Of a DNA stretch of 41,195 nt, positions 17,789 to 40,436 are shown one piece after another (within the stretch, counting starts at the first letter, position 1; the number at the start of each line of letters is the position of its first letter). Where the stretch lies: the NCBI GenBank assembly GCA_017651245.1, contig JAGCDQ010000044.1:1-41195 (forward strand), in the 5' to 3' direction. This DNA is from Bacteroidaceae bacterium. Lineage in GTDB: Bacteria; Bacteroidota; Bacteroidia; Bacteroidales; Bacteroidaceae. Under the pieces are notes generated by a model. The model was not told where the DNA came from, ran no database searches, and saw nothing but the letters and a program-made list of their open reading frames with translations. The translations under genes were made by a program, and so were the position numbers.

Positions 17789-18748
17789 TCAAAGAAAAAC
17801 ACTGATGGCAAGGAGAACACCGAAAAGGAAAATATTGCGGGCTGTAACGCCAAGCACTTGGTTGAGAGCCTTACCTTCAAATGCCTTCATCTGATGGAAA
17901 GCCTTGATATGAAGAAGAAAATAGATAATAGGCAGCCCCACTTTGATTCCGACAATAAGAATAGACGCTTGAACTTGCATGTTCAGGCAAATGGAAGTGA
18001 TTGCAAGAAGCATAGCGATGACACCCAACCATAAGTAGAGATTAAGACAGATCTTTTCACCCTTCTTTCTACCAAATTCTTCCCCATAACGTTTGATTTG
18101 TGCCTCTATAATGCGCACGACGATGGTGCGTTTACCACTCACCTTATCTTGATGGCGGTCACGGTAATTGTTGACCATGAGAAGATTGTCAGTCGCAAGC
18201 CCCATAGCAAGACTGGCAATCGCCAAAGGAATGCTCCACCCTCCCATCGTTATCACATAATGAGTAAAAATAACAGGAACGAAACCGAAGAAAACCAGTA
18301 CGAGGAAATCGCCCAAGCCAAGATAAGAAAGGTGGGTCGTGTAAAGGAAACAGAAGAGGACACAAAGAACACCAATAACGAGAAGTTCCCACTGCATATG
18401 GGTGAACAAAATCGCGATTCCCACCAGACATGAGAGGGTGGTCATGATGGCAATGCCCCACTGCATTGCACGAGGCGTAATCCAACCCTGAGCACAAGCA
18501 CGTTCTGGACCAAGACGGTCTTCACGGTCAGTGCCTTTTCTAAAATCGAAATAGTCATTGACGAGGTTTGCGTCAATCTGCATGAAAACAGCGAAGAGGA
18601 AACAGAGAACTGCTGAGAACTGAAAGTTGAGAGTAGAAAGTTGAGAGTAGGCAAAGGCTGCTCCGACAAGAACGGGAGCGACGGCTCCTGTAAGGGTCTT
18701 GGGTCGTGCGGCAAGCACCCATGCTTTCAAAGAATTAGTCTTTACCAT
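17789..18748 (-). CDS. menA: 1,4-dihydroxy-2-naphthoate polyprenyltransferase MenA
   Basis: MenA prenylates DHNA in the inner membrane to form demethylmenaquinone for anaerobic respiration. The 319-aa protein is a UbiA-type enzyme with about nine membrane segments. It has the first Asp motif NLVNDYFDFRKGTDRED and the second NNYRDRHQDKVSGKRT. Residues about 34-46 (YSQLSTLNFQFSA), in the first loop, are encoded by a run of five heptanucleotides (18614-18648) that looks like an intergenic repeat captured into the gene. A second heptad run (18750-18784) lies two bases upstream of the ATG. Confidence 0.95.
   Translation of the reverse strand: MVKTNSLKAWVLAARPKTLTGAVAPVLVGAAFAYSQLSTLNFQFSAVLCFLFAVFMQIDANLVNDYFDFRKGTDREDRLGPERACAQGWITPRAMQWGIAIMTTLSCLVGIAILFTHMQWELLVIGVLCVLFCFLYTTHLSYLGLGDFLVLVFFGFVPVIFTHYVITMGGWSIPLAIASLAMGLATDNLLMVNNYRDRHQDKVSGKRTIVVRIIEAQIKRYGEEFGRKKGEKICLNLYLWLGVIAMLLAITSICLNMQVQASILIVGIKVGLPIIYFLLHIKAFHQMKAFEGKALNQVLGVTARNIFLFGVLLAISVFL
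18614..18648. repeat. Five heptads inside menA
   Basis: Five 7-base words read TGAGAAC, TGAAAGT, TGAGAGT, AGAAAGT and TGAGAGT on the plus strand. Bases 18622-18635 are repeated exactly at 18636-18649. The run lies inside the menA coding sequence (antisense here) and encodes a polar stretch in a predicted loop. Confidence 0.85.
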
Positions 18749-18749
18749 A

Positions 18750-18784
18750 TCAGCTCTTACCTCTTACTTCAGACCTCTCACCTT
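18750..18784. repeat. Five heptads before menA
   Basis: Words TCAGCTC, TTACCTC, TTACTTC, AGACCTC and TCACCTT fill the gap between the menA start (18748) and the stop of the MORN-protein gene (18786). In menA sense the run is purine-rich and may double as the ribosome landing region. Confidence 0.7.
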
Positions 18785-18785
18785 T

Positions 18786-19415
18786 TTACTCATCTTCACT
18801 TTTCCAGTATTGAATGGTCAATGTGTTGTTGGTGTAGAACATCGCACCGAATCCCTGGCGGTCGTTGTTCTTGTAGCGACCATAGTAATAATTACCATTA
18901 TTATAATAATAGAGTCCAACACCTTCACGCTTGCCATTGACTGTTTCGCCCACATACTTGTCGCCATTCTGGTACGTGAGGGATTCGAAGCGGTAGGTCT
19001 TCTCGTAGTCGGATGGAAGGGAATACTTGTCACCGTCCTTCATAATGTAGAGTGGATTACCTGTAGTTAGGTCATAAACGATGTAGTGATCGTTACTGCC
19101 AACCTTTGCGATTTGAGTACCCATCTTGATACCAAAAAGAAAATTACCAAGACGATATTGCCCATAAATGACACCATCGTTATCTGTGTAATAGGCACCA
19201 AAGCCGTAGATGTTGCGTTCTTTAGTAATTTGCCCAAAGTACTGCCCAAATGAGGATTTAGCAACTCCACTGGCAAAGTCTTTCACATAATCCACAAACA
19301 CAGCGTCGTACTGACCAGGTATGTTGGGGTACTTCTCCAAACGAGCAAACTGAGCACGAAGCGTAAGGGTGAAAACACATTGCAACAGCAGGAAGATAGA
19401 GAATATTTTTCTCAT
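18786..19415 (-). CDS. Secreted MORN-repeat protein
   Basis: A 209-aa protein with a signal peptide (residues 1-21, ILLLQCVFTLTLRA). Its C-terminal half carries at least two clear MORN-type repeats: YQNGDKYVGETVNGKREGVG and YYNNGNYYYGRYKNNDRQGFG. Weaker copies (GFGAYYTDNDGVIYGQYRLG) are in the N-terminal half. MORN repeats mostly act as structural scaffolds. No catalytic motif is seen. It is upstream of menA on the same strand with a 37-base gap filled by heptads, so the two may be co-transcribed. Location in the periplasm or outer membrane is inferred from the signal peptide. Confidence 0.8.
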   Translation of the reverse strand: MRKIFSIFLLLQCVFTLTLRAQFARLEKYPNIPGQYDAVFVDYVKDFASGVAKSSFGQYFGQITKERNIYGFGAYYTDNDGVIYGQYRLGNFLFGIKMGTQIAKVGSNDHYIVYDLTTGNPLYIMKDGDKYSLPSDYEKTYRFESLTYQNGDKYVGETVNGKREGVGLYYYNNGNYYYGRYKNNDRQGFGAMFYTNNTLTIQYWKSEDE

Positions 19416-19456
19416 GAATCTGAGGTTTTAATGGATTGAGTTTCTGAAAATCGCTG

Positions 19457-19464
19457 CAAAATTA
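19457..19464 (-). promoter_or_regulatory. -7 element for the MORN-protein gene
   Basis: Reads TAATTTTG on the minus strand, about 42 bases before the start at 19415. No good -33 partner is visible. Bases 19465-19565 are AT-rich leader of the divergent outer-membrane gene, with no convincing consensus promoter. Confidence 0.45.
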
Positions 19465-19565
19465 CATATAAAAACTCAATTTTTTAGCATTCCATTAAAC
19501 CTTTTCTTTACTTTATAGTCAATTTGGGTACATTAGCGAAGAAAAATCAATCAAAAAATCACAAT

Positions 19566-22556
19566 ATGAAAAAATCACTCATCGCTTTGTTTCTCACTTT
19601 TGTGGGGCTCAGCGCAATGGCTCAGTCCAAATTTAATGTTTCGGGAACCATTCTCGAAGACGAAACAAACGAAGTTGTTATTTCAGCCACAGTTCGTATC
19701 CTCAACCTACCCGACAGCAGCATGGTAGCTGGTGCCGCAACAGGATTTGATGGTAGTTTCAACATCAAGAACGTCAAGGCTGGTAAGTATGCTCTGAAAA
19801 TCACTTATGTGGGTTTCCAGACAAAAGTGCTTCCATTGGATTTGACCAACAAGAAAGACAAGAATGTCAGTGTTGGTTATCTGCACATCATGCCCGACTC
19901 CAAGCTGATGAAGGACGTAACGGTGACAGCCAATGTTGCAAAAGTACAGGTGAGCGGCGACTCTCTCATCTATAACGCTGACGCCTACCGTGTGCCAGAA
20001 GGTTCCGTACTGGAAGACCTTGTGAAGAAACTGCCAGGTGCACAGGTGGACGAAAATGGTGGCGTGACCATCAATGGTAAGAAGGTGTCCAAGATTCTCG
20101 TTGATGGTAAGGAATTCTTCTTCGATGATGCCAGCATGGCCATGAAGAACATCCCGACCAACATGATTGACAAGCTTAAGGCATACGACCGCAAGAGTGA
20201 TTTCGCTCGTGTGACGGGTATTGATGATGGTGAAGACGAAACCGTGCTCGACCTGACTGTGAAGAAGGGTATGAATAATGGTTGGTTCGGCAACATCGAC
20301 ACAGCTTACGGTACAAAAGACCGTTGGTCTGAGAGATTCACGATCAACCGCTTTATCGACCATAACCAATACACTCTGACTGGTGGCGCCAACAACACGG
20401 GCGGTATGGGCTTCGGTGGTGGCGGTGGCCGTTTCGCCAACATGGGTGGCGGTGGCGGCGGTGGTCTTCGCAACCAGAAGAACATCGGTATCAACTTTGC
20501 CACAGAGGCTAAGAACATTGAATTAGGTGGTAGCGCACGTTACAATTATAATGGTAATGACACGAGAAACTGGTCATCCACTCAAAGCTTCGTAACATCA
20601 CAGGGTGCATTCAGCAACAGTGCCAGCCAGAACAGAAGCAGTGCAAACAACTGGAACGGTCAGTTCCGTATGGAATGGACACCAGACTCAATGACGAACA
20701 TCATCTTCCGTCCATCAGGAACATTCTCAAAGAACAAGGGATACAGCGACAGCGAGTCTGCAAACTTTAGCGATGATCCTAACAAGTTGACCGATGATCC
20801 GTTGACTGATGCCATCAACAATGCTGTGAACGTGGATGGTCTGATGGACATCATTGTCAACACGAATGTGAACCGTTCACAGACATACAGCGAAAACAAG
20901 CGTCTGCAAGGCGAATTGCAAGCAAACCGCCGTTTGAACGACTACGGACGTAACATCACCCTTCGTGCTACAGGTAACTTCGGTAGTTCAGAGAGTAAGC
21001 AACTCTCAGCTGCAAACATCGAATACAAGAAGACTGGTGGTACGACAACCAATAACCGTTACTACACCACTCCTGGTAGAAACAGGTCTATCGGTGCCCA
21101 GTTATCTTATTCAGAGCCTATTGGCAACAGAGCTTATCTGCAATTCTCTTACAGATATGATTACAGCTACAACAGGTCAAATCGTCAGGCGTTTGCAATG
21201 GATCCTGTAGCTTATACAGACTTGGCAAGTTCGTTGAACAATTACCGCTACAACATTGATGGTGCCATTGACTACTTGCTCTCTAAAGAGTACAAGCTGT
21301 ATGGAGAGGATGAAAACGAAGATGCCAAAAAGAACAGCCAGTACTCTGAGTACAAGAACTACAACCAAACCATCAGCCTCAGTTTCCGTAAGATTTCGGA
21401 TTACTTCAACTTCAGTGCTGGTATTGATCTTTTGCCACAAAGAAGTACCCTCGATTATAAATATATGGGCACTAAGTACCCAACCATCACCCGTAACGTG
21501 TTCAACTTCGCACCAAATGTTGATTTCCGCTATAACTTCACACAGCAGACCAACCTGCGTTTGAATTACCGCGCTCGTACTCAACAGCCAAGTATGACGA
21601 ACTTGTTGGACATCACGGATGACTCGAACCCACTGAACATCACGAAGGGTAACCCTGGCTTGAAGCCTTCTATCACCCACAACATCAACCTCAACTTCAA
21701 CACCTTCACGATGGCTCATCAGCAGAGTATCTTTGGTTGGGGTGGTATCAACTTCACCAGAAACAGTACAGCAAACCGTACTAGCTACAATGAGGCAACA
21801 GGTGTGAGAACCACAAAGCCTGAGAACATCAACGGTAACTGGAGTGGAAATATTGGTGGTGGCTACAACACGGCACTTGACAGAAATGCTTACTTCACGA
21901 TGAACACTTTTACAAGTTTCAACTACAATCATCAAGTCAGCTACCTCGACCCACAGCAGTACACTGAGGATAAGTCTAAGACCAACACCATCGGCGTGAA
22001 CGAGAACCTTGGTTTCGACTTCCGCAAGGATTGGTTCGAAATGGGTATCAATGGTAGCTTGAACTACAACAATTCACGCAACTCTGTCTTGACAACTGGT
22101 AACATGGAGACTTGGACTTTCAGTTACGGTGCTGATTTGAACCTTATCTTCAATAACGGCTTGACATTCTCCACAGACATTAGCCAGAGCAGCCGTCGCG
22201 GTTTCTCCTCTGCCAACATGAACACCAACGAATTGCTTTGGAACGCTCAGGCAGGTATGTCTTTCCTCAAGGGTAACGCACTGACCATCACGCTCCAGTG
22301 GAACGATATCCTGAAGAAGCAGAGCAACATCAGCCGTCAAATCTCAGCTTACCAGCAAAGTGACTCGCGTTACAACGCTATCTACTCTTACGGCATGATT
22401 CATGTCATCTACAAACTCAACATCTTCGGCGGTGGAGGCTCACGTGGTGGCTTCGGCGGAGGCATGGGAGGCTTCGGTGGAGGCATGGGAGGCTTCGGTG
22501 GAGGCGGCGGCTTCGGCGGAGGTGGCTTCGGCGGAGGCATGGGAGGCATGAGATAA
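19566..22556 (+). CDS. Outer membrane beta-barrel protein (TonB-dependent receptor-like, OMP_b-brl_3 type)
   Basis: A 996-aa outer-membrane protein. I start at 19566 because MKKSLIALFLTFVGLSAMAQ is a clear signal peptide; the open frame 14 codons upstream has none. Order: CarboxypepD_reg-like domain (about 22-105), plug-like region with VTVTANVAKVQVSGDSLIYNAD and VTINGKKVSKILVDGKEFFFDD (about 115-200), then a large barrel with many Tyr/Asn-rich strands. A Gly-rich patch lies at about residues 275-310. The last barrel strand (HVIYKLNIF) is followed by a 40-residue Gly/Met/Phe tail rather than ending the protein. Substrate unknown. It is paralogous to the protein at 28112-31273, and a strong terminator follows. 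Confidence 0.85.
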   Translation: MKKSLIALFLTFVGLSAMAQSKFNVSGTILEDETNEVVISATVRILNLPDSSMVAGAATGFDGSFNIKNVKAGKYALKITYVGFQTKVLPLDLTNKKDKNVSVGYLHIMPDSKLMKDVTVTANVAKVQVSGDSLIYNADAYRVPEGSVLEDLVKKLPGAQVDENGGVTINGKKVSKILVDGKEFFFDDASMAMKNIPTNMIDKLKAYDRKSDFARVTGIDDGEDETVLDLTVKKGMNNGWFGNIDTAYGTKDRWSERFTINRFIDHNQYTLTGGANNTGGMGFGGGGGRFANMGGGGGGGLRNQKNIGINFATEAKNIELGGSARYNYNGNDTRNWSSTQSFVTSQGAFSNSASQNRSSANNWNGQFRMEWTPDSMTNIIFRPSGTFSKNKGYSDSESANFSDDPNKLTDDPLTDAINNAVNVDGLMDIIVNTNVNRSQTYSENKRLQGELQANRRLNDYGRNITLRATGNFGSSESKQLSAANIEYKKTGGTTTNNRYYTTPGRNRSIGAQLSYSEPIGNRAYLQFSYRYDYSYNRSNRQAFAMDPVAYTDLASSLNNYRYNIDGAIDYLLSKEYKLYGEDENEDAKKNSQYSEYKNYNQTISLSFRKISDYFNFSAGIDLLPQRSTLDYKYMGTKYPTITRNVFNFAPNVDFRYNFTQQTNLRLNYRARTQQPSMTNLLDITDDSNPLNITKGNPGLKPSITHNINLNFNTFTMAHQQSIFGWGGINFTRNSTANRTSYNEATGVRTTKPENINGNWSGNIGGGYNTALDRNAYFTMNTFTSFNYNHQVSYLDPQQYTEDKSKTNTIGVNENLGFDFRKDWFEMGINGSLNYNNSRNSVLTTGNMETWTFSYGADLNLIFNNGLTFSTDISQSSRRGFSSANMNTNELLWNAQAGMSFLKGNALTITLQWNDILKKQSNISRQISAYQQSDSRYNAIYSYGMIHVIYKLNIFGGGGSRGGFGGGMGGFGGGMGGFGGGGGFGGGGFGGGMGGMR

Positions 22557-22626
22557 TCCCAATATACCCCAAGCATACTAAACTTCATTATATTTACACA
22601 TTCTGTTCTCAACAAAAAGAACACAG

Positions 22627-22658
22627 AAAAGGCTCGACCAAATGGTTGAGCCTTTTTA
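22627..22658. terminator. Bidirectional terminator between the barrel gene and rsmD
   Basis: AAAAGGCTC pairs with GAGCCTTTT, extended inward by ACC/GGT past one mismatch, with an AAAT loop. T-runs follow on both strands, suiting the convergent genes on each side. Confidence 0.85.
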
Positions 22659-22682
22659 ATGATGCTATTTTTCTGATTCTAC

Positions 22683-23213
22683 TTATTGAAAGAATGAGAA
22701 GTTCACGCTTCCATAATTACGGTGAGCTATAAAACGGGGATGTTCCGAAAAATCGTAACTGCTACCATGTTCCAAAATCAACACTCCCTCATCTGCCAAC
22801 AAAGGTAAAGCTGCATCAGGAATTTCACTCAAATTCTCCAACGCATAAGGAGGATCGGCAAAGATGATGTCATAGCGTTCCTTACATGTGCGTACATACT
22901 TAAAGACGTCCCCTTTCAGCGGTAACCATTCCTTCACCTGCAGTTCCTTCTGAACACGCGACAAGAACTGCCAGTGCTTGAAATCCTTCTCCACTGACAC
23001 CACTTTGCTACATCCACGCGATGCCAACTCCAATCCTATAGATCCAGTACCAGCAAAAAGGTCAAGAGCTGTAGGTGCCACATCAAAATCAACATACACG
23101 TTCTCCAATATGTTGAAAAGTCCCTCTTTGGCAAAGTCTGTCGTAGGACGTGCCTTAAAGCCCGTAGGTGTGGGAACATGTCGTCCCTTATATTTTCCTC
23201 GGATTATTCTCAT
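22683..23213 (-). CDS. rsmD: 16S rRNA (guanine(966)-N(2))-methyltransferase RsmD
   Basis: RsmD methylates G966 of 16S rRNA in the 30S subunit using SAM. The 176-aa protein starts MRIIRGKYKGRHVPTP, as family members do. It has the SAM-binding LDLFAGTGSIGLELASRG and the catalytic DPPY in DIIFADPPYALEN. It sits downstream of a DUF3822 gene, a conserved Bacteroidetes neighbourhood. The 86-base gap between them contains five heptads (23263-23297). Confidence 0.95.
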   Translation of the reverse strand: MRIIRGKYKGRHVPTPTGFKARPTTDFAKEGLFNILENVYVDFDVAPTALDLFAGTGSIGLELASRGCSKVVSVEKDFKHWQFLSRVQKELQVKEWLPLKGDVFKYVRTCKERYDIIFADPPYALENLSEIPDAALPLLADEGVLILEHGSSYDFSEHPRFIAHRNYGSVNFSFFQ

Positions 23214-23262
23214 ATGGTATAGATTTTTGAGAAAGAACGCATGGTAAACATGTTCACCGAAT

Positions 23263-23297
23263 GGTCTTTAATCTTTAATCGTTATCCATTAACCCTT
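23263..23297. repeat. Five heptads between DUF3822 and rsmD
   Basis: GGTCTTT, AATCTTT, AATCGTT, ATCCATT and AACCCTT run without gaps, ending three bases before the DUF3822 stop codon and about 50 bases upstream of rsmD. Confidence 0.65.
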
Positions 23298-23299
23298 AC

Positions 23300-24112
23300 T
23301 TAAAATCCACAAATGAGCAAAGTCTGCAAGTCGTAAGGAATAAAGTTGTTACCCATTGTCAGACGATCCTTGAAATCCTCACTGCGGTCAATGACCGAAA
23401 CATGCTGGAGAAAATACTTGGTTTTCTCCGACAATTCCACAGCACGTTTCTCCGTATCACCCACCACAAAGAGAGCATCGTCCACTTGATCGAAGCCCAA
23501 TTCTTTCCATACATTCAGCGTGTAGTACTGCATATCAGCAACACTGGTGCAATCGAAATTGTTGACAAAGAGCATTCTCCCCTGTTCGAAAGCATAGATG
23601 GTAATCTCTTTCTCATGTAGATAAACAAACATTTTCTTGCCAGGTCCGAACAGGCTCTTCTCACTAAAAAACTCTATCAACGTGCTGGCAGAAGCATAAA
23701 ATCGGGCACGGGGAAAATCATCAAGCAACAGTTGATAGATGCTACGCTCTAAACCGAACACAATGGCAATACCCGAACGGCGCAACACATTGTAACTAAC
23801 GTGCTGAGGCTTATCCTTTGGAAAGGTGAACTGATACACCGCATGAACGTCTTCCTTCTTAAAAGTGGCAACAGGTACAGTCGTGAAGTGAGGCGTAGTG
23901 ATCAGCACATTCACTCGTTGATAGTTTTGCTGCAGCATTGGCTCATGCATCAATGCATCTTTCAAATTCGCCGTCAACGAGATCGTATGGTTCACATCCC
24001 ACACTTTATACTCGAACGGTTCATTCTGTCCTGGAGCATAGGTACAAAAAGAAAGTCCATTCGAGCAGACTCGAATGGACAAACTTTTATTAGTTATCTG
24101 ATTTTCTGCCAT
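23300..24112 (-). CDS. DUF3822 family protein
   Basis: A 270-aa protein of the Bacteroidetes DUF3822 family. It starts MAENQITNKSLSIRVCSNGLSFC and contains ITTPHFTTVPVATFKKED, IVFGLERSIYQLLLDDFP and MFVYLHEKEITIYAFEQGRMLFVNNFDC. The layout resembles an ASKHA (actin-like ATPase) protein of the PilM/FtsA sort, with two similar halves, but the usual phosphate motifs are not clear. No signal peptide. It is co-oriented with rsmD and with an upstream membrane-anchored protein. Function unknown. Confidence 0.88.
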   Translation of the reverse strand: MAENQITNKSLSIRVCSNGLSFCTYAPGQNEPFEYKVWDVNHTISLTANLKDALMHEPMLQQNYQRVNVLITTPHFTTVPVATFKKEDVHAVYQFTFPKDKPQHVSYNVLRRSGIAIVFGLERSIYQLLLDDFPRARFYASASTLIEFFSEKSLFGPGKKMFVYLHEKEITIYAFEQGRMLFVNNFDCTSVADMQYYTLNVWKELGFDQVDDALFVVGDTEKRAVELSEKTKYFLQHVSVIDRSEDFKDRLTMGNNFIPYDLQTLLICGF

Positions 24113-24114
24113 TA

Positions 24115-24148
24115 ATTGTCAACTGTCAATTTCAACTGTCAACTAAAT
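24115..24148. repeat. Heptad run before DUF3822
   Basis: ATTGTCA, ACTGTCA, ATTTCA (six bases), ACTGTCA and ACTAAAT fill the whole gap between the DUF3822 start (24112) and the stop of the upstream gene (24148-24150). Confidence 0.75.
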
Positions 24149-24897
24149 TATTCCCAGTTACCAGCCATCTTGTTGTTCGTGTCCTCAAGGTCACCGATAC
24201 GGAGTCCGTACCATTCACCATCTGTCTGGTCCTCGTTGTCGAGCATCAACTCAGCACGGTTTCTGTGGCGTTTCTTCAAATCAGCCTTCACGCTCTTGAC
24301 TTTCTTTTCGTTCATGCCGTCCATATAGTCGTCCAGACGTGCACGGAATTCAACGAGCATATCAAACTCATTTGACTTCATGTTAAACTGAGCCTTCTTA
24401 CGCAGCTCAATGATACCCTGGTAAATCGTGTCATACACAGATGGATCGAAAGTGGAGCGCACCACGAAGAAAGAACCATCAGCTGGACGACCTATTGGCA
24501 CATACTTCATTGAGTCAGGATTAGCAATACCCAACTTCTCAGCAGCGGTCATCCAAATAGTGTCACGTCTGATGAGGCCCTTTGCGACAGCCTCCTTTTC
24601 AGTCATACCTGCCTCCAATTGATCATCAGTCAACTCACCTTCCTTGATGATCTTATCAACGGTCTTACCGTTTTTCACAAAGTCAATCAAAGAGTCGATG
24701 GTGCCACAATACTCACCAAAAGTCATCTTGTACTGCTCTTCTGCGTTACGGATGTCCATCAGACGAGCAATAACGATTTTCTCACGAGCTGCCTTCTCTT
24801 CATCAAAGGCAATGTCGCTGTAGATGCTGTAGAAGCATGCTGCGACCAGACCTAATGCACATACGACAAGAAGTCCATTAATTACACTTTTTTTCAT
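24148..24897 (-). CDS. Conserved membrane-anchored protein of unknown function
   Basis: A 249-aa protein from the ATG at 24895-24897 (MKKSVINGLLVVCALGLVAACFYSIY). A frame extends upstream but lacks a sensible start. One N-terminal membrane helix (about 6-27) is followed directly by a long charged helix with IARLMDIRNAEEQYKMTFGEYC. That is the layout of type II secretion pseudopilins, although no prepilin peptidase site (G-F-T-x-x-E) is visible. The rest is mixed and acidic. It precedes DUF3822 and rsmD on the same strand. Beyond this resemblance I do not recognise it. Confidence 0.75.
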   Translation of the reverse strand: MKKSVINGLLVVCALGLVAACFYSIYSDIAFDEEKAAREKIVIARLMDIRNAEEQYKMTFGEYCGTIDSLIDFVKNGKTVDKIIKEGELTDDQLEAGMTEKEAVAKGLIRRDTIWMTAAEKLGIANPDSMKYVPIGRPADGSFFVVRSTFDPSVYDTIYQGIIELRKKAQFNMKSNEFDMLVEFRARLDDYMDGMNEKKVKSVKADLKKRHRNRAELMLDNEDQTDGEWYGLRIGDLEDTNNKMAGNWE

Positions 24898-25003
24898 GAT
24901 ATGGTTGTTAATTTTTTGTTGTTTACACACTTTTTTACGGTCCCAAAAGCAAGTTTTTTGCCTCACTTATGGTCCACTCCATGAATAATCACTATATTCG
25001 TTG

Positions 25004-25011
25004 CAAAAATA
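25004..25011 (-). promoter_or_regulatory. -7 element upstream of the membrane-anchored protein gene
   Basis: Reads TATTTTTG on the minus strand, about 107 bases before the start at 24897. No TTTG at the expected -33 distance, so the assignment is tentative. Confidence 0.4.
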
Positions 25012-25062
25012 GTGCAAAAAATTCAATTGCGCCCACAACTTTCAGATTTTTTTTCAAAAAAG

Positions 25063-26574: not shown

Positions 26575-26593
26575 AAAGAAAGTCGTAACTTTG
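26563..26593 (+). promoter_or_regulatory. luxS promoter
   Basis: TTGG at 26563-26566 and TAACTTTG at 26586-26593 with a 19-base spacer. The -33 part overlaps the end of the helicase gene. The luxS ATG is 30 bases downstream of the -7 box. Confidence 0.65.
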
Positions 26594-26622
26594 CACCACA
26601 AAAACAAACAATAAAAATCATT

Positions 26623-27147: not shown

Positions 27148-27153
27148 GGCAGG

Positions 27154-31273: not shown

Positions 31274-31330
31274 ATATTCTATATGACCCTCAAACATGCC
31301 AAAGGTTAAGAGACGCTCCCCTATTTGAAG

Positions 31331-31362
31331 AAAAAAATCCCTCCCACGCATGGTGGAAGGGA
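31331..31362 (-). terminator. alaS terminator
   Basis: On the minus strand TCCCTTCCAC pairs with GTGGGAGGGA (one G-T wobble) around a five-base loop, followed by seven T. Lies just after the alaS stop at 31369. Confidence 0.85.
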
Positions 31363-31368
31363 AATTTC

Positions 31369-33987: not shown

Positions 33988-33993
33988 ATAAAG

Positions 33994-34028
33994 TTACGAT
34001 TTGACGATTTACTATTTACTATTGAGAA
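33994..34028. repeat. Five heptads in the alaS leader
   Basis: TTACGAT, TTGACGA, TTTACTA, TTTACTA and TTGAGAA, seven bases upstream of the alaS start. The TTACGAT word is the complement of the ATCGTAA word before the blaR1-like gene. Confidence 0.75.
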
Positions 34029-34038
34029 AAATCGGGTG

Positions 34039-34046
34039 CAAAGTTA
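34039..34046 (-). promoter_or_regulatory. alaS promoter -7 element
   Basis: Reads TAACTTTG on the minus strand, 51 bases from the start at 33987. The -33 element is not clear. The heptad run would lie within the transcribed leader. Confidence 0.55.
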
Positions 34047-34119
34047 CAACTTTTTCTCCAAATTACTCATCTTTCCTTGAGCATTTTTCATTTACCAAAG
34101 CGCTTCGAAGCAGAAAAAA

Positions 34120-34184
34120 GTCCCCCACCCCCTTTTTAACGTCCTTCACAGAAGTTTTTCAAGTCCTCAAATTCCTTCAGCCTC
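34120..34184. repeat. Degenerate 21-22 bp periodic repeat
   Basis: GTCC recurs at 34120, 34141 and 34163, each followed by pyrimidines, CA and in two units TTTTT. The period is 21 then 22 bp. Weak but aligned with the other arrays of this intergenic region. Confidence 0.45.
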
Positions 34185-34246
34185 CCTATACAAATTTTCC
34201 AAATGGTACGCTGCTACGTTACAGCATGATGGTGTTAGTTTTTCTG

Positions 34247-34320
34247 AATAAGGGCACCTTATTGCTCAATAAGGAACACTTATTATTCAACAGAGGCAGG
34301 TTATTGGGAAATAAGCCTTG
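34247..34320. repeat. 21-bp tandem repeat, three and a half copies
   Basis: Units start at 34247, 34268 and 34289 with a partial one at 34310. Units 1 and 2 share AATAAGG, CAC/ACC, TTATT and a final TC; unit 3 is diverged. Most units can form AATAAGG/CCTTATT-type dyads. No open reading frame of note. Confidence 0.8.
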
Positions 34321-34337
34321 TAGAGAAAAACCAGTCC

Positions 34338-34482
34338 TTACAGATTACAGTTCTTACAGTTAAAAAATGAGCATAACACTTCTTTATAAAGATTATATAA
34401 CTAATTAATATATATATAGTTATATAGTATATAGAGAAAAATGGGTGCCTCAAAAAATAACTGTAAGAACTGTAATCTGTAA
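34338..34482. repeat. Perfect 25-bp inverted repeats around an AT-rich core
   Basis: Bases 34338-34362 are exactly complementary to 34458-34482. Each arm contains the hexamer TTACAG three times (or its complement). TGAG/CTCA add a short inner stem after an A-run. The core holds a second dyad (ATATAACTA with TAGTTATAT). The whole could fold into a long cruciform or RNA hairpin, or be a MITE-like element. No target duplication is seen. Confidence 0.85.
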
Positions 34483-34804
34483 TATCTAATTCTTTAGCTT
34501 TCATCTAAAAGGCTATAAAACAATAACATACGATATTACAAAGTCCACTGTTCCTAAGTTGCCTAACCTTAGAAAAGGGACAGAATTCATCAAAAACAGG
34601 CTCTTTTGGGGGTCAAAAACAGGCAAAAAACTTCATTTTGATGTATTTTATGCCACTTTCTGCACACAAAGCCTTTCCAAAAAATCAGCATCAACACCCT
34701 ATTTGGAGGGGTATTTGTAGTCAAATGGCTCCTTTCAACACAAAAAATGGGGGTTCATCGCTAATAATTGTCTTTTCGAACCTACAGTTGCACCCTCCCC
34801 GAGC
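34483..34804. other. Gene-free, AT-rich intergenic sequence
   Basis: No convincing coding sequence or promoter. The only structure I see is the 12-mer TCAAAAACAGGC, at 34590-34601 and again at 34613-34624, a 23-bp spacing. Confidence 0.6.
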
Positions 34805-34936
34805 TTGCAAGTGTTACAACGAAGAGGTTGCAAGTGTACCCTCGTGAGTCCACAAAATCGCCTCCAACGGCAATTTTTAAGGGGCACTTTTTTGTTACCC
34901 TTAAGGGTTGCAAAATTTTCCCTTAAGGGGAAGCAA
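34805..34936. repeat. Two further short arrays with 22-23 bp period
   Basis: TTGCAAGTGT occurs at 34805-34814 and 34828-34837 (23 bp apart). The palindrome CCCTTAAGGG occurs at 34898-34907 and 34920-34929 (22 bp apart), with a decayed TTAAGGGG copy at 34877-34884; GCAA/TTTT bases accompany each copy. Confidence 0.75.
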
Positions 34937-35036
34937 TTTTTGCGGCTGCACCTCAAAAATAAAAAAGAAATAGGACTTTTCTTTTTGTATTTCGCTCGGT
35001 TTGCACTCCCGTTGGCTACGCCGAAAGTACTCACGT

Positions 35037-35099
35037 TCGACAATAAAAGTTAAAATATAGATTTTTCCTTTGTATTGTCCTCACTTAATCGTACCTTTG
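35037..35099 (+). promoter_or_regulatory. lemA-htpX promoter on the 63-bp repeated cassette
   Basis: TTTG at 35069-35072 and TACCTTTG at 35092-35099, 19-base spacer. About 58 of 63 bases match the dxr promoter at 9279-9341. Just upstream lies the GGCTACGCC palindrome (35014-35022). Confidence 0.85.
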
Positions 35100-35149
35100 T
35101 CCCCCGAAATAGAAATAGGAACAATAAACCACTAAAAACTATTATCATT

Positions 35150-35713
35150 ATGGTTACTACTATCATTATTATTGCTGTCGTTGTTGTGATTATCCTTGCC
35201 ATCATCGGCATGTACAACAACCTTGTGAGACTTCGCAACAATCGCGAAAATGCTTTTGCTGACATCGACGTGCAGCTCAAGCAGCGTTATGACCTCGTGC
35301 CTCAGTTGGTGGCTACCGTGAAGGGCTATGCAGAGCATGAGAAGGGACTGCTCGAGAGCATCACCGCTGCCCGTTCGGCTGCCATGAGTGCCACCAGCAT
35401 CGACGACAAGATCAAGGCTGACCAGCAACTCACTTCTGCCTTGGCTGGCTTGAAGGTGCAAGTGGAGGCTTATCCTGACCTGAAGGCAAACCAGAACTTC
35501 CTCCAGTTGCAGGGCGAACTCTCTGACATCGAGAACAAACTCGCTGCCGTACGCCGCTTCTTCAACTCTGCCACTCGCGAACTCAACAACGCCGTTCAGA
35601 CTTTCCCCAACAACATCTTCGCTGGCATGTTCGGCTTCCACAAGGAAGCTATGTACGAGATTGAGGCTTCAGAACGCGCTACTGTAGAAAAGGCACCTGA
35701 AATCAAATTCTAA
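35150..35713 (+). CDS. LemA family protein
   Basis: A 187-aa membrane-anchored coiled protein. I start at 35150, where MVTTIIIIAVVVVIILAIIGMYN gives one N-terminal helix. The frame further upstream runs across the promoter. The family core follows: NNLVRLRNNRENAFADIDVQLKQRYDLVPQLVATVKGYA, then NQNFLQLQGELSDIENKLAAVRRFFNSATRELN and an FPNNIFA segment. LemA proteins are helical bundles of unclear role that are commonly encoded beside an HtpX/M48 protease, as here. The shared transcript (35-base gap filled with heptads) supports a joint role in membrane protein quality control. Confidence 0.93.
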   Translation: MVTTIIIIAVVVVIILAIIGMYNNLVRLRNNRENAFADIDVQLKQRYDLVPQLVATVKGYAEHEKGLLESITAARSAAMSATSIDDKIKADQQLTSALAGLKVQVEAYPDLKANQNFLQLQGELSDIENKLAAVRRFFNSATRELNNAVQTFPNNIFAGMFGFHKEAMYEIEASERATVEKAPEIKF

Positions 35714-35715
35714 AA

Positions 35716-35750
35716 GGTTTGAGGTTGGAGATTTGAGGTTGGAGGTTTAT
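35716..35750. repeat. Five heptads abutting the htpX start
   Basis: GGTTTGA, GGTTGGA, GATTTGA, GGTTGGA and GGTTTAT; the ATG of the protease gene (35749) overlaps the last word. The sense strand is purine-rich and could act as a ribosome binding region. Confidence 0.85.
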
Positions 35751-36747
35751 GCAGTATGTAGGTATTCAGACTCAAATTGCACGGAACAACTGGAACAGCA
35801 TCATGTTGCTCCTGATGTTCCCGTGCATCATTTTGGGAATGCTGTGGGTGTTCTGCTGCATTTTTGGATTCCAAAGCACCTACGACTCGTATGGTTATGA
35901 GCATTTCTACCTCGACACGGACATCATCAATAAGACGTGGCTCAGTTGGGCACCTTGGGCGGTCGTGATCGTAGGCATCTGGCTGTTGATTGCTTATCTG
36001 TTCAATGCCCAGATGATTCAGCATGCCACAGGTGCAAAGCCTCTGGAACGCAAGGAGAATCCACGTGTCTATAACCTGGTGGAGAACCTCTGCATGAGTT
36101 GTGGTATGCCGATGCCGAAGGTGAACATCATCGAAGACCCACAACTGAACGCCTTTGCTTCGGGCATCAACCAGAAGAGTTACACCGTCACGCTGACTCG
36201 TGGCATCATCGACTACTTGGACGATGCCGAATTGGAGGGTGTGATTGCGCACGAACTCACCCACATCCGCAATCGCGACACGAAGGTGCTCATCATCAGC
36301 ATCGTCTTTGTCGGCATCCTCTCCACCCTACTTACCGTGCTGACCCGTGGGGTGTTACGTGCATTCTTGTGGAGTGGTGGTTCAAGTCGTCGTTCGAACA
36401 ACAAGGGAGGTGGCGTCGCCATCTTCGTGATCATCATTGCTGCCATCGTCTGTGCCGCCATCGCTTACTTCCTCACCCTTCTCACCCGCTTTGCCATCTC
36501 GCGCAAACGTGAGTTCATGGCGGATGCTGGCGGTGCTGAACTGACACGCAATCCTCGTGCCCTCGCCTCTGCCTTGCGTAAGATTTCTGCTTATCCAGGA
36601 CTTGGGCACATCAATCGTGAGGACATTGCCCAACTCTACATCATTCATCCGAAGAAACTGACACAGAGTTTCTTCGATAAACTACAATCTCTCTTCAGCA
36701 CCCATCCGAGCACAGAAGAGAGAATCCGAATCTTAGAACAGTTCTAA
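35749..36747 (+). CDS. htpX: HtpX-like M48 family zinc metalloprotease
   Basis: A 332-aa inner-membrane protease of the HtpX/Ste24-like type that degrades damaged membrane proteins. There are two N-terminal membrane helices (about 18-42 and 70-86). The active-site HELTH is at residues 168-172 and the third ligand Glu255 is in EFMADAGGAEL. Two helices (182-205, 222-245) lie between them. A Ser/Arg/Asn-rich linker (209-219) lies in the loop. It is the second gene of the lemA operon and is followed by a strong terminator. The name htpX is by family; bona fide E. coli orthology is not proven. Confidence 0.92.
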   Translation: MQYVGIQTQIARNNWNSIMLLLMFPCIILGMLWVFCCIFGFQSTYDSYGYEHFYLDTDIINKTWLSWAPWAVVIVGIWLLIAYLFNAQMIQHATGAKPLERKENPRVYNLVENLCMSCGMPMPKVNIIEDPQLNAFASGINQKSYTVTLTRGIIDYLDDAELEGVIAHELTHIRNRDTKVLIISIVFVGILSTLLTVLTRGVLRAFLWSGGSSRRSNNKGGGVAIFVIIIAAIVCAAIAYFLTLLTRFAISRKREFMADAGGAELTRNPRALASALRKISAYPGLGHINREDIAQLYIIHPKKLTQSFFDKLQSLFSTHPSTEERIRILEQF

Positions 36748-36749
36748 CA

Positions 36750-36791
36750 AAAACATCCAGCCGTTTTCATCATGGCTGGATGTTTTGTTTT
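36750..36791. terminator. Bidirectional terminator between htpX and the GH53 gene
   Basis: AACATCCAGCC and GGCTGGATGTT form a stem of at least 12 bp (36751-36762 with 36774-36785). T-rich bases follow on the plus strand and an A-run precedes it, which gives T on the minus strand. Confidence 0.85.
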
Positions 36792-36792
36792 A

Positions 36793-38856
36793 TCATCGCT
36801 GGAACACTTTGTAGGTCTTTACATTGTCTGATGACTTTTTTCGGATGATGTTCAATCCCCGTCTGGGATGACTGAGTCTGATACCGTCTGGTGTATAATA
36901 CTCTGTGTCACCTTCCCTATCCGAAATCGATGGAGCGTAAATGGCGTCCTCTGTGCCCTCGATGTGCTTCAAGCCGAGGAAAGCATCCATCACGATAGAT
37001 GGTTTCATTGTCCGCGGATTCCATGCACCCAGGTTGTAGTCATCGGTCAGTTCAGGTTCCCAATAGTAAAGTCCTGATGCCCCTGCCTCCATCAACTTGA
37101 CAAGAAACTCACACAGCCACTGGTTTGCCTCCAACTGACGGTCTATGTAATAACCAGTCTCCACAATCAGCACTGGCTTACCATAGCGTTCCTTCAGCAT
37201 CTTGACATTCTCCACCACCTTATCAATCAATCTATAGGGAGTCAGCGAAGACCTCTTGACATGCACAGAAAGGCCAATGGCATCCCACTTCGCCCCTTTC
37301 GCCTGCAACTCATCAAAATAGTCTGTCAGCCACTGTGCATCTTCACATTTTGACACATGAATGACTGTCTGCAAATCAGGATTCACTTCCTTCACCACAT
37401 CATAAGCTGTATTGACAATGCTTACAAAGGTTTCTGTGTCTTGTCCTTCTTTCCACATCATGCCATTGTCAGTCTCATTGCCTATCTGCACCCAACGCAA
37501 ATTTCCTTTTCCCACGCCAAACTTCACAGCCAGCTTAGTATAGGTCTTCACATTGGTCAGCACCTTCTCAAAATCAGCATTTTTCCACGTTGATGGCATC
37601 ATGTATTCTCCCCACCAGTCACTATAGTGCAGGTCTATCATATAATTGAACTCCTGTGGTTCAGCCAAATTCGCCAATGTCCTCATCTGAGACCAAGTAT
37701 AATTGGACGAATTGACCAACATACGAAGTCTGATGCTGTTGATTCCCTGCTCTTTCAAGATGGGGAACAAAGACCGTTCATTTCCCTCTTTGTCGTAAAA
37801 TTTTTTGCCTTGATTGGTGAGCACAGCTAATGAACTCACATCAACACCAAAATCAAAATCCTTGTCAACTGCAGCTCTGTCGAAGACCTGACGAGTCACC
37901 GTTTCCACATCCCTGAAAGGAGCATCGTAGTCCTTGTCAGCTGCAGAGAAATTGCGAGTCTTGACACTCCAGTTATTGGAAAATCCTGTCAAATCTGGCT
38001 CAAGGAAGATATGAGCGTTCTGCTTATAGCCCTTCAGCTGCCAATCCATCCATTTCACTGCAAGGCGTCCAAACTCACCTCCGTACTGATTCCAATAGGT
38101 GCCCCCATGACCTGCATTCGACAAGTCAGCCCATGCCACAGGCTTCGTCACCTTCCCATAGTCAGTCTTGGCGTTTTCGTATGCCACATCATCAGTTCCT
38201 CCTGTCATATAGATGATCGGGCAATGCAATGAATTGAGCGTCTGAGGTGATGCTCCTCCCATCGACATCGTGCCCATACCTGCATTCATGATCAGCAATG
38301 TCTTTACGCGTGAGTTCGCACAATTGGCGATGGCTTGTGCTCCACCACAGGAATGGCCGGAAAGCGCAATGTTATTCACATTGATTGCCTTATAATAGTC
38401 GCTACTCTTCAGTACCGACTGCTTAACCAACCAATTGATGGCCTCCACCACCATCTTTTCATCAGAGCCACCATCGTCACGCTCGCTGTCCTCCATCTCG
38501 AAGGCACCGATGCCCACCACTACATAACCATGTGACGCCATCTCATTGAGCATACGCTCATAGCCGATAGACGATCCCGAGCAGGCTCCATTGCACCAGA
38601 TGAGAATGGGCAACGCACCCTCACGCCTCGCAGCATATTGCACATCACGAGGGCGGTAGATGGTGAAATTGGGTAGTGTCTTTTCGCTGACAATAATGGC
38701 ACGATAGCGACCGCTTCCGCCATTGTCAACTTCTTTCTGTCGGCTCACTTGGTCATTGATGGTTTCATTTGCAGCCTCTGCGATAGGTGCACACACCAAA
38801 GAGAGCCATCCTGTTGCGACCAACAGGAGAACTTTCTGGAAAAGATTTAGGTTCAT
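36793..38856 (-). CDS. Bifunctional secreted enzyme: alpha/beta-hydrolase (esterase) fused to GH53 endo-beta-1,4-galactanase
   Basis: A 687-aa exported protein with a signal peptide (residues 1-29). Residues about 45-280 are an alpha/beta-hydrolase like PET-hydrolase/cutinase-type esterases: SGHSCGGAQA with Ser169, TGGTDD (Asp222/223) and AGHGG (His250). Residues about 330-635 match GH53 arabinogalactan galactanase: IRLRMLVN, FNYMIDLHYSDWWGE, acid/base Glu461 in QIGNETDNGM and nucleophile Glu566 in LIVETGYY. The tail (EYYTPDGIRLSHPRRGLNIIRK) resembles short C-terminal signals of Prevotella secreted proteins, and T9SS genes occur in this window. A likely job is removing ester groups and cutting the galactan side chains of pectin. 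The start codon is abutted by three heptads (38857-38877). Confidence 0.88.
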   Translation of the reverse strand: MNLNLFQKVLLLVATGWLSLVCAPIAEAANETINDQVSRQKEVDNGGSGRYRAIIVSEKTLPNFTIYRPRDVQYAARREGALPILIWCNGACSGSSIGYERMLNEMASHGYVVVGIGAFEMEDSERDDGGSDEKMVVEAINWLVKQSVLKSSDYYKAINVNNIALSGHSCGGAQAIANCANSRVKTLLIMNAGMGTMSMGGASPQTLNSLHCPIIYMTGGTDDVAYENAKTDYGKVTKPVAWADLSNAGHGGTYWNQYGGEFGRLAVKWMDWQLKGYKQNAHIFLEPDLTGFSNNWSVKTRNFSAADKDYDAPFRDVETVTRQVFDRAAVDKDFDFGVDVSSLAVLTNQGKKFYDKEGNERSLFPILKEQGINSIRLRMLVNSSNYTWSQMRTLANLAEPQEFNYMIDLHYSDWWGEYMMPSTWKNADFEKVLTNVKTYTKLAVKFGVGKGNLRWVQIGNETDNGMMWKEGQDTETFVSIVNTAYDVVKEVNPDLQTVIHVSKCEDAQWLTDYFDELQAKGAKWDAIGLSVHVKRSSLTPYRLIDKVVENVKMLKERYGKPVLIVETGYYIDRQLEANQWLCEFLVKLMEAGASGLYYWEPELTDDYNLGAWNPRTMKPSIVMDAFLGLKHIEGTEDAIYAPSISDREGDTEYYTPDGIRLSHPRRGLNIIRKKSSDNVKTYKVFQR

Positions 38857-38886
38857 TGAGAATTGAGAATTGAAAATAATATACGG

Positions 38887-39777
38887 TTACTTTTTCATGT
38901 ATTTCTTGTACGCCTCAATCATTTGCTGGCGTCGTTCTTGTGTGACCTTGATGAGTCGCGTGTTGGTGTCATCACTCTTATCAACGCCGTTGTCCTTTTC
39001 GCTCCAGTGGAAGTTACTTTGCATCTGGCCATGCAGGTCGTCATACACACGACCATCCTCACCAAAGAAGACAGACTTACTATTGGGCTCACCTGCCATC
39101 CATCCCACGAAGGGCTGCTCCACATTCCACTCGCCTGCAGCAATCATCACATAGGGTTTGCCATCAATGACCACCTCCAACAGCTTGTCCTTCACGAAGT
39201 CCAGATATTCATCGTACACTTGTTCGTAGAGCATCGCCATCGTCACTTCCGTGTTTTCCACACCCTGAAATTGGCGACGAACCAGTTCCTTCTGAACCTC
39301 ACTCAACAGGTCGGCTGCAGCCATTGGTCGTTCAGATGCCATCTGCATCATCACAGCCATCGTATTGACCATCATTGGAGTGGTGCTTTCTGTGTCCTTC
39401 TTCAGTTGGAAATAGCGCTTCAACTCATCGCCATAGAAGATTGCATTCTGAAAGTCTTGGTGATTAATTGCGTTGAACATCAGCGTGAGACCTGCCTCAT
39501 TGAACACGGAGTCGGGCACAACGGGCTGGATGTCAGCCACCAGGTGATAGATGCGCTCAAAGTATTTTCCTGCTGCCACCTGGTCATAGAGTTCACTCTC
39601 CTTGTTGATCAGCATTCTCGCTGCAGCGTATTGCTTCTGCCAGTCAGCAGGGTTTGCGTCAGCATCCTTTGCCACACGCTCAAATTCCTGACGTAACGTC
39701 GCATTCTGTGCGTTCACGTTGAAAATTAGGGTACACATCATGGTCAGTGCCACCCAAAAGCATTTCTTTGCCATCAT
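38887..39777 (-). CDS. Secreted protein of unknown function
   Basis: A 296-aa protein with a signal peptide (residues 1-23, WVALTMMCTLIFNVNA). The mature part looks helical in its first two-thirds, like a repeat or solenoid (QEFERVAKDADANPADWQKQ, YGDELKRYFQLKKD). It then has a beta-rich C-terminal section (LLEVVIDGKPYVMIAAGEWNVEQPFVGW) that could be a small ligand-binding module. No catalytic motif is recognised. It lies upstream of the esterase-GH53 gene on the same strand with a gap of only 30 bases, so co-transcription is likely, but no functional link is shown. Confidence 0.75.
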   Translation of the reverse strand: MMAKKCFWVALTMMCTLIFNVNAQNATLRQEFERVAKDADANPADWQKQYAAARMLINKESELYDQVAAGKYFERIYHLVADIQPVVPDSVFNEAGLTLMFNAINHQDFQNAIFYGDELKRYFQLKKDTESTTPMMVNTMAVMMQMASERPMAAADLLSEVQKELVRRQFQGVENTEVTMAMLYEQVYDEYLDFVKDKLLEVVIDGKPYVMIAAGEWNVEQPFVGWMAGEPNSKSVFFGEDGRVYDDLHGQMQSNFHWSEKDNGVDKSDDTNTRLIKVTQERRQQMIEAYKKYMKK

Positions 39778-39806
39778 AACATCAATAGATTTTTAAGTTT
39801 CTGAGG

Positions 39807-39814
39807 CAAAGGTA
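39807..39814 (-). promoter_or_regulatory. -7 element for the secreted protein and GH53 genes
   Basis: Reads TACCTTTG on the minus strand, about 30 bases before the start at 39777. TTG lies about 16 bases further upstream, so the -33 match is poor. Confidence 0.5.
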
Positions 39815-39917
39815 CACAAATTCCATAGAACAACTCTTAATATCTAATAATTTTCGCTGAAAATCTAACAAAATTCGTTAAAGTTGGGGTTCGATGTGCA
39901 TTTTTTTTGTGTTTTTA

Positions 39918-39950
39918 TTTGGTATTATCTAAAAGTTTAGATTAACTTTG
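39918..39950 (+). promoter_or_regulatory. Promoter with embedded palindromic operator before blaI-like gene
   Basis: TTTG (39918-39921) and TAACTTTG (39943-39950) with a 21-base spacer. The spacer contains ATCTAAA-AG-TTTAGAT (39927-39942), a perfect 7-bp dyad. The half-site ATCTAA recurs at 39842, 39863, 39960 and 39982. The layout fits autorepression by the BlaI-like product. Confidence 0.7.
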
Positions 39951-40001
39951 CCGCAGAAAATCTAAAAAATTAAATCAAGAAATCTAAAATATTAAATAAA
40001 T

Positions 40002-40382
40002 ATGAAAAGGAACGACGAAGAAAGACAGCTCACCAAAGCCGAAATGGAAATCATGAATGTGCTTTGGAATACGAAGGGAATGACAACCCACGAAATCATT
40101 GAAGAGTATCCAGAACCCAAACCTGCCTACTCCACCATCGCCACATTCCTGAAAATCCTGACGAACAAAGGCTTCATCGCCTCACGCAAACAGGAAGGAG
40201 GTGGCAAGACCTTCGTGTTCTCACCCCTCATCAGCAGGGAGGCATACACCAACCGCGTGATGAAGGAAGTGAAGAGCACCTTCTTTGGAAACTCCTTGAA
40301 ATCCATGCTCTCCTACTTCGCCCAGCATGAAGAAGTCTCAGAAGAAGACTTGCAGGAAATCATGGAAATGATCAAGAAGTAA
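40002..40382 (+). CDS. BlaI/MecI/CopY family transcriptional repressor
   Basis: A 126-aa winged-helix repressor. The DNA-binding half has LTKAEMEIMNVLWNTKGMTTHEI, YSTIATFLKILTNKGFIASRKQEGGGKTF and the V-F-S-P-L-I segment. The helical dimerisation half has FFGNSLKSMLSYFAQHEEVSEEDLQEIMEMIKK. In the classic system the sensor protease inactivates the repressor when beta-lactam binds. Bacteroidetes versions often control other targets, so the inducer is unknown. The promoter carries a perfect dyad suited to this protein. The gene is followed by a BlaR1-like M56 gene after a heptad-containing 54-base gap. Confidence 0.93.
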   Translation: MKRNDEERQLTKAEMEIMNVLWNTKGMTTHEIIEEYPEPKPAYSTIATFLKILTNKGFIASRKQEGGGKTFVFSPLISREAYTNRVMKEVKSTFFGNSLKSMLSYFAQHEEVSEEDLQEIMEMIKK

Positions 40383-40400
40383 AGCATACAATTCAAAGAA

Positions 40401-40436
40401 AATCGTCAATCGTAAATCGTAAAATCGTAAATCACC
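40401..40436. repeat. Heptad run abutting the blaR1-like start
   Basis: AATCGTC, AATCGTA, AATCGTA, AAATCGTA (eight bases) and AATCACC, ending directly at the ATG (40437). Confidence 0.8.

Follow-up and report, generated by a model that had tools for sequence, protein, structure and literature searches.

What produces runs of seven-base words beside unrelated genes, when the words differ from site to site while the period and the number of copies hold? The question is raised by a stretch of 41,195 nucleotides from a Bacteroidaceae bacterium (GenBank assembly GCA_017651245.1, contig JAGCDQ010000044.1, positions 1 to 41,195; hereafter the window). A preliminary description of it had listed eight such heptanucleotide runs, mostly next to a downstream start codon, and had proposed for them either a common generating process, be it stepwise slippage or a reverse-transcription-like mechanism, or a shared role in translation initiation. 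The eight runs are all found at the places given, seven of them scoring 10–16 at lag 7 (shuffle means 2.8–3.8, p 0.001 or less), whereas the interpretation holds in part: a common process is borne out, a role in initiation and reverse transcription are not. The arrays are probably the rapidly evolving product of insertion or seeding at the DNA level and of rewriting in 7-nt steps, filtered by selection.

Period 7 in the genome and in the window

Because the sites of the window had been picked by eye, the periodicity was tested across the genome. The source genome (G000), that of a rumen-type member of the Bacteroidales, is a 2.83-Mb draft with a completeness of 86%, and the main scan covered 81 pieces amounting to 1,403,762 bp, that is half of the genome, with 1085 predicted genes and 764 intergenic pieces (154,382 bp). 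In the intergenic DNA, 79 lag-7 segments were found versus none in 10 dinucleotide shuffles, whereas the coding sequence (CDS), although eight times longer, holds 17. The multiples of 7 follow with 43 (lag 14), 27 (lag 21) and 8 segments (lag 28), and the other lags between 4 and 30 gave 0–18 each, led by lags 22 (18), 8 (12), 16 (9) and 11 (8), with 0–3 for the rest. A smaller scan of 390 kb likewise returned 28 intergenic lag-7 segments and none in 20 shuffles. The autocorrelation analysis suggested in the preliminary description thus shows a clear excess over shuffled intergenic DNA, and the objection that there might be none falls away. Period 7 is dominant, though other periods occur. Period-8 arrays, mostly of TTGAARAA words and several as inverted pairs, are seen in L006, L065, L070, L073, L284, L290, L292 and L295 (L numbers denote loci, G numbers genomes); among the rows listed, 12 of the 15 lag-8 rows outside genes have TTGAARAA-type words. 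Period-11 arrays, e.g. of GAACTCRATTR, are present in L010, L059 and L294.

With a threshold lower than that of the segment scan, a set of 145 arrays was collected, in which arrays with slips of 6 or 8 nt are under-counted. The median length is 32 nt, 104 arrays comprise 3–5 whole units and 43 consensus words are represented. The arrays are distributed over tandem (68), divergent (27) and convergent (18) regions, the inside of predicted genes (28) and piece ends (4); as the genes were predicted by a simple codon-usage caller, some of the 28 in-gene arrays may represent miscalled starts or false genes.

The arrays of the window, to which no strand is assigned, are listed below with scores at lag 7, each site being compared with 1000 dinucleotide shuffles of the same 41–56 nt.

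12633–12653: weak heptamer run between the upstream stop and the start of the porU-like (C25) gene; score 7, p 0.016
18622–18650: array inside menA, right after a conserved N-terminal stretch; Tandem Repeats Finder period 14, i.e. 2 × 7; score 13
18750–18784: array filling the 37-nt spacer from gene 18786–19415(-) to menA(-); score 11
23263–23297: array immediately following the stop codon of DUF3822, with the rsmD ATG about 50 nt away; score 15
24115–24148: array taking up the 35-nt spacer upstream of the DUF3822 gene, with TTGACAR-type words common to five of eight relatives
33994–34028: alaS leader array, with a TAnnTTTG element on one side and the ATG on the other; score 12
35714–35748: 35-nt (5 × 7) array between the stop (TAA) of a LemA-family gene and the htpX ATG; junction compared with relatives below
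38855–38877: three-unit array abutting the start of a GH53-domain gene; score 14
40401–40436: array between a penicillinase-repressor-family gene and the ATG of an M56 (blaR1-like) gene; score 14

Since these sites were chosen for their periodic look, the per-site p values are descriptive only, and the genome-wide scan is the unbiased test. The run inside menA lies below the threshold of the 145-array set and was absent from the preliminary list, in which the array at 23263–23297 had been placed beside the rsmD start; it actually abuts the DUF3822 stop codon (23300). Pfam assignments agree with the gene names: UbiA (menA), Cons_hypoth95 (rsmD), DUF3822, M48 (htpX), GH53, M56 (blaR1-like), C25 (porU) and alanyl-tRNA synthetase.

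Turnover between species

Comparison of orthologous sites, likewise suggested beforehand, reveals turnover across species at htpX, L059:10259, rsmD and menA. Among nine relatives with both htpX flanks, stop and start overlap by one base in four (TAATG in G005, G009 and G010, TGATG in G017), whereas in the window 35 nt, in words unrelated to the flanking letters, separate the stop from the ATG. Spacers without a clear array were found in G015, G016 and G006 (scores 5, 1 and 6), the flanks are 543 nt apart in G012, and in a metagenome-assembled genome (MAG) from horse (L143) the stop is directly followed by the start (TAA|ATG). Similarly, at L059:10259 almost no spacer exists in nine of 14 relatives (G001, G002, G004, G005, G006, G008, G014, G016 and G018), and G003 has a longer one with no lag-7 signal (score 2), making ten without an array; arrays of other words occupy the site in G011, G012 and G015 (scores 23, 11 and 9), and G009 is doubtful (6, p 0.02). 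The rsmD junction measures 3 nt in G005 and G006, bears lag-7 arrays of other words in G009, G010 and G011 and an inverted pair of 8-nt repeats in G012, and has no array in G016 or G018. Here, G009 and G010 differ by 14 nt, which is exactly two units; these two genomes are 91–94% identical over long matches, a sample too small for an indel spectrum. At the junction before menA, G016 shows a stop/start overlap (TGATG), G005 a 28-nt spacer with weak lag-7 signal (score 7, p 0.012) and G012 one of 28 nt with no signal. Within menA, present in seven of the eight loci examined, heptamers at the same place were found in G005, G009, G010 and G016 (lag-7 scores 19–49), 8-nt repeats instead in G012 (lag-8 score 29), and none in the array-poor G006 (score 2). 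With several relatives lacking the array, its presence at such a junction is best read as a gain.

Other arrays are kept in place. TTGACAR-type words precede the DUF3822 gene also in G005, G009, G010, G011 and G016, in spacers of 29–44 nt (scores 18, 17, 17, 17 and 7), with weak signals in G006 (6) and G012 (7) and none in G018. As the array thus recurs at the same place in separately assembled genomes, an assembly error is unlikely to be its cause. By eye, the alaS leaders of 14 congeners with a visible leader include nine with AAATNGT-type words and changed units (in G012 weakly), one with other words (G015) and four with none, and none of 11 sequences from other families has an array there. 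The blaR1-like junction, also judged by eye, has similar AAATNGT words in G005, G015 and G016. At the GH53 junction, none of the relatives compared spans both flanks. Beside the alaS leader, positions 34241–34760 of the window hold an interspersed repeat of about 350–500 nt, copies of which in L006, L065 and L074 are 76–79% identical.

The abundance of arrays also changes sharply among close relatives. It was measured as triads of TTGA at 7-nt spacing, which misses arrays of other words, with a 6-nt-spaced pattern as control, the reversed pattern being unsuited since it is itself 7-spaced and scores high. Among 37 genomes of the genus, the source genome included, the triads range from 0 to 516 per genome, 12 genomes having at least 100 and 14 at most 10 (G006 with 7 and G018 with 1 are array-poor by this measure), versus 0–17 per genome for the control. 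In a tree of alaS from 17 genomes of the genus, one gene drawn with no support values, array-poor genomes are scattered among rich ones. The named records nearest in alaS are MAGs labelled Bacteroidaceae or Prevotellaceae, including one from goat reticulum and one from horse feces. In 80 named alaS loci, 50 lag-7 segments occur in 19 loci, and eight other lags (4–6, 8–11 and 13) gave 0–11 each. Beyond the genus, a sample of the class has four TTGA in a row in 55 of 149 genomes, in words that vary by genome (e.g. TTGAACA, TTGAGTA or TTGAGGC).

Words, units and slippage

The leading words of the 145 arrays are GAGGTTT, GAGATTT, CACTTTT, AACCTTT and CAATTTT. The word sets are species-specific to a good extent: an array query of CAACTGT and GAGRTTT gave 24–39 matches in G001, G003, G005, G009, G015 and G016 and 3–10 in the other eight genomes searched, and among the matches listed those in G003, G005, G009, G015 and G016 are mostly CAACTGT, those in G001 GAGRTTT. 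With regard to possible dispersal by phages, the GAGRTTT pattern matched 19 viral stretches and GTTAGTR 27, the latter being itself another heptamer word and no neutral control. Within arrays, units are most alike to their neighbours (mean Hamming distance 0.88 for adjacent units and 1.55 for units six apart), as expected if units are copied from neighbouring ones. Whole arrays are not simply copied between loci, because the order of units is not clearly shared; shuffling the unit order left no clear excess. Individual arrays therefore seem to arise, or to be rewritten, on the spot, using words of a common set. Most words include one of the stop trinucleotides TAA, TAG and TGA on one strand, and an array, given 7 = 1 mod 3, would close every reading frame; such a stop function as the cause of the arrays was rejected, as letter-shuffled words do nearly as well (0.81 ± 0.08 vs. 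0.91).

These data bear on ordinary replication slippage, by which chance local seeds would expand as in microsatellites and the geometry of the polymerase would favour 7, as suggested in work cited by PMC4692102 (here and below, statements on published work refer to parts of the papers cited). The likeness of nearest units and the two-unit difference between G009 and G010 agree with it, and at the in-gene site L017:15539 an AGTT-like local seed is, by eye, common to arrays and array-free relatives. However, the same words recur at unlinked loci, word sets are species-specific, few arrays have most other unit lengths, and at htpX, where relatives lack a spacer, the words bear no relation to the flanking sequence. 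Of the stepwise slippage proposed at the outset, the changes in units of 7 therefore stand, whereas local slippage does not easily account for the htpX array, and as a full explanation we regard it as doubtful. A common generating process in the wider sense is corroborated by the one dominant period, the species-specific word sets and the gain at junctions that relatives lack.

Placement relative to starts, stops and promoters

A different explanation of the pattern would be that the arrays are leader elements that serve translation initiation without Shine-Dalgarno (SD) sequences, an unstructured repeat recruiting the 30S subunit or a binding protein. In favour of this, ribosomes of Bacteroidia are described as not recognizing SD sequences (PMC9976891, PMC6847099), the alaS and blaR arrays keep similar words, and in 787 kb the last 45 nt ahead of starts hold lag-7 runs more often (32 of 431) than the stretch from -145 to -100 does (6 of 220). 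Convergent 3' ends of the same 787 kb, however, are equally rich (9 of 122). To separate starts from stops, placement was evaluated for the 39 arrays in tandem spacers leaving at least 40 nt of choice, short spacers, in which the two are inseparable, being excluded. Six of these arrays come within 15 nt of the start and 15 are equally close to the stop, compared with 4.9 expected for either under uniform placement; the enrichment near start codons expected in the preliminary description is hence absent where the spacer has room. Tandem spacers of 30–40 nt (n = 54) hold 13 arrays, another point that can be cited for initiation, but being mostly filled by the array, such short spacers largely explain the impression of placement at starts.

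Moreover, among 74 array/start pairs (divergent arrays counted for both starts), 28 have a TAnnTTTG motif separating the array from its start, 2 have one further upstream than the array and 44 have it in neither position. With this -7 box between array and start, many arrays are probably outside the mRNA. TTTTCAC-type arrays stand between two divergent -7 boxes, and would thus belong to both promoter spacers, at L069:19009-19026, L261:13152-13175 and L262:6837-6868. Orthologous genes manage without an array at the same junction, and the 28 arrays inside predicted CDS also speak against initiation. The shared role in initiation is accordingly not upheld, and we consider it improbable.

In those 28 in-gene arrays, the sense strand has more C than G in 25 and no stop trinucleotide in 24. 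At L007:11467, a gene with a DnaG-type zinc ribbon is 22 residues longer than in G001, G003, G009 and G016, where the counterpart reads NL(I/V)(P/K)G..PRF, and G005 and G015 have a different heptamer tract. The same gene has a second array (L007:11715), whose words vary at the DNA level among five relatives without any change in length; with the encoded LST.N.QLST partly conserved, constraint from the protein may be at work at this site.

Hairpins, mobile elements and reverse transcription

Inverted array pairs fold into long hairpins, some around a common core, which raises the question whether the arrays are arms or remnants of a palindromic element resembling a miniature inverted-repeat transposable element (MITE), with inverted arrays around a short hairpin core. 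An inverted partner within 220 nt exists for 15 of 117 intergenic arrays, versus 3.3% in a control with the flanks of other arrays; some inverted pairs have the related core CCATTCGGATGG..TTACTTAGAT, repeat cores such as CTTGGCRAGCCAAGCGTGCTAAAG are flanked by arrays, and the outward strand bias at region edges, quantified below, would fit as well. Yet direct partners are similarly frequent (13 of 117 at an equal score), 102 of the 117 arrays have no inverted partner, and cores differ. As regards duplication of the target, the htpX junction reads TAATG in relatives and TAA-35 nt-ATG in the window. A MITE-like origin, too, appears improbable. The Y1 transposase (PF01797) was rejected as the cause, since this family does not track the arrays and the weak G000 match lies in a 213-aa frame read as kinase-like.

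Hairpins with GTGAAAA/TTTTCAC arms and the core CCATTCGGATGG..TTACTTAGAT are located at L257:3354-3447, L279:18441-18541, L068:11530-11622 and L269:19021-19111, and the alaS leader of L027 has a similar core with other arm words. Another short repeat core, CTTGGCRAGCCAAGCGTGCTAAAGATACGATRAGAG, stands between GAGRTTT arrays at L010:4604-4638, L007:14267-14300, L074:19699-19767 and L015:5693-5738. Further repeats of the window are inverted 9-nt repeats of the ACGAATRAA type at 6272–6330, a possible hairpin between convergent genes with similar 9-nt inverted repeats at the junctions of relatives, and a 22-nt tandem repeat of 5.6 copies at 6976–7098.

The variable units have a telomerase-like look, which might suggest a reverse transcriptase copying an RNA template in 7-nt steps. 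In a search limited to RVT_1 (PF00078) in draft genomes, which can miss genes, this domain was not found in nine of 12 array-rich genomes (G000 and eight others), four of the nine being at least 90% complete, and its presence is not associated with array counts (Mann-Whitney p 0.94). The reverse-transcription-like mechanism proposed earlier can thus be given hardly any credence.

A model of array formation

Insertion or seeding combined with stepwise rewriting, which we favour, would proceed as follows. A process acting on the DNA would seed or insert short tracts, mostly of 3–5 units, in words taken from a limited, species-specific set, and slippage, unequal exchange or conversion would then lengthen, shorten and homogenise these tracts in 7-nt steps. 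Purifying selection would clear insertions elsewhere and leave those at gene borders and in protein loops, so that arrays are seen at gene edges because others were purged and not because start codons need them. We infer that a single process makes all arrays, that existing arrays supply the words of new ones, and that the location of arrays is set by selection.

Several observations weigh against this model. Periods 8 and 11 are found too. The words are not random, given the 43 consensus words, the share of GAGGTTT/GAGATTT (32 of 145 arrays) and a frequent TTNA framework, and constraint on sequence explains this as well as copying does. Orientation is not random either: near the edges of regions of at least 80 nt, the G-rich strand is the one that reads away from the gene, at ratios of 23:4 at 3' edges and 16:4 at 5' edges (20:4 and 11:4 without inverted pairs), which neutral insertion does not predict. 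Matches in unit order between loci are not clearly beyond shuffles, neither at 28 nt (18 vs. a mean of 13, maximum 27) nor at 21 nt (137 vs. a mean of 105, maximum 140). The htpX difference is 36 nt net and not a clean 35, and the array-poor G018 carries a different array there (score 13); in menA, it has a weak lag-7 signal (score 8, p 0.006) in a T/C-rich stretch without a visible array. G006, array-poor as well, nonetheless has an array in its alaS leader. Finally, words are kept across species in some arrays (DUF3822, alaS, blaR), which could mean function.

A bolder version of the model is an enzymatic activity, past or present and so far unrecognized, by which many Bacteroidia would synthesise heptanucleotide tracts stepwise, 7 nt at a time and with errors tolerated at certain positions, and insert them genome-wide. 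We put this forward tentatively and think it rather unlikely. If true, a heptamer-writing activity would be on in some species and silent in close ones, as the 0–516 TTGA triads within one genus would reflect, its word set would drift from species to species, and gene spacing as well as protein loops would be reshaped by it.

Relation to known repeats

Heptanucleotide repeats of Cyanobacteria go by the name STRR. The A. sublithincola mentioned in this section we take to be an Aequorivita. Most similar to the present arrays are the TAACTGA direct repeats of Beggiatoaceae, some Cyanobacteria and five Bacteroidetes (MacGregor 2015, PMC4679880), which are tandem heptamers, mostly intergenic and of 2–6 copies in the main genome; some overlap the upstream stop, few lie inside open reading frames in reverse orientation, and some close relatives have no sets. 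They differ in having, in that main genome, one dominant word, in forward orientation just upstream of starts and with single-base variants that are rarely repeated, whereas the arrays described here comprise 43 consensus words and have no start preference; tandem TAACTGA has 0 copies in the 1,403,762 bp, both strands considered. The same source describes other heptamer repeats in Gramella, Aequorivita-type and Elizabethkingia strains. It also notes that close relatives of Gramella forsetii and A. sublithincola have shorter regions in which repeats are not obvious, which fits the turnover seen here.

The G-rich GGGNATC repeats of Xanthomonas and Nostoc, putative G-quadruplex formers, likewise have a heptamer period, are intergenic and vary in length and sequence between close relatives (PMC4692102). 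In contrast, the leading words found here are without GGG tracts, though minor ones such as GAGGGTT have them, as judged from the words alone. Three heptanucleotides are mentioned for Calothrix (PMC4692102). Seven-base tandems are shared with the cyanobacterial repeats, whereas many words and orthologous presence and absence are seen here. The word heptanucleotide is also used in a paper on simple repeats in Haemophilus influenzae (PMC2651432). Within the Bacteroidales, the BrickBuilt MITE of Porphyromonas gingivalis is a tandem repeat in an intergenic repeat element with small inverted ends (PMC4596501); unlike the 7-nt arrays, most of which have no inverted partner, it has a 23-nt unit and a defined leader and tail. 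Tandem repeats of archaeal Borgs are also fast-evolving, arise independently and extend into proteins (PMC9879509), but are located on extrachromosomal archaeal elements, whereas the present ones lie in bacterial genome contigs and have a dominant 7-nt unit. A description of multi-word heptamer arrays in Bacteroidales was not found in the literature searched, most subscription papers being outside its scope.

Significance

A repeat before a start codon need not be a regulatory motif. Why bacterial repeats favour heptamers becomes testable by comparing array-rich with array-poor congeners. In these bacteria, a fast mutational process of period 7, which differs sharply between close species, appears to shape gene spacing, leaders and some protein loops.

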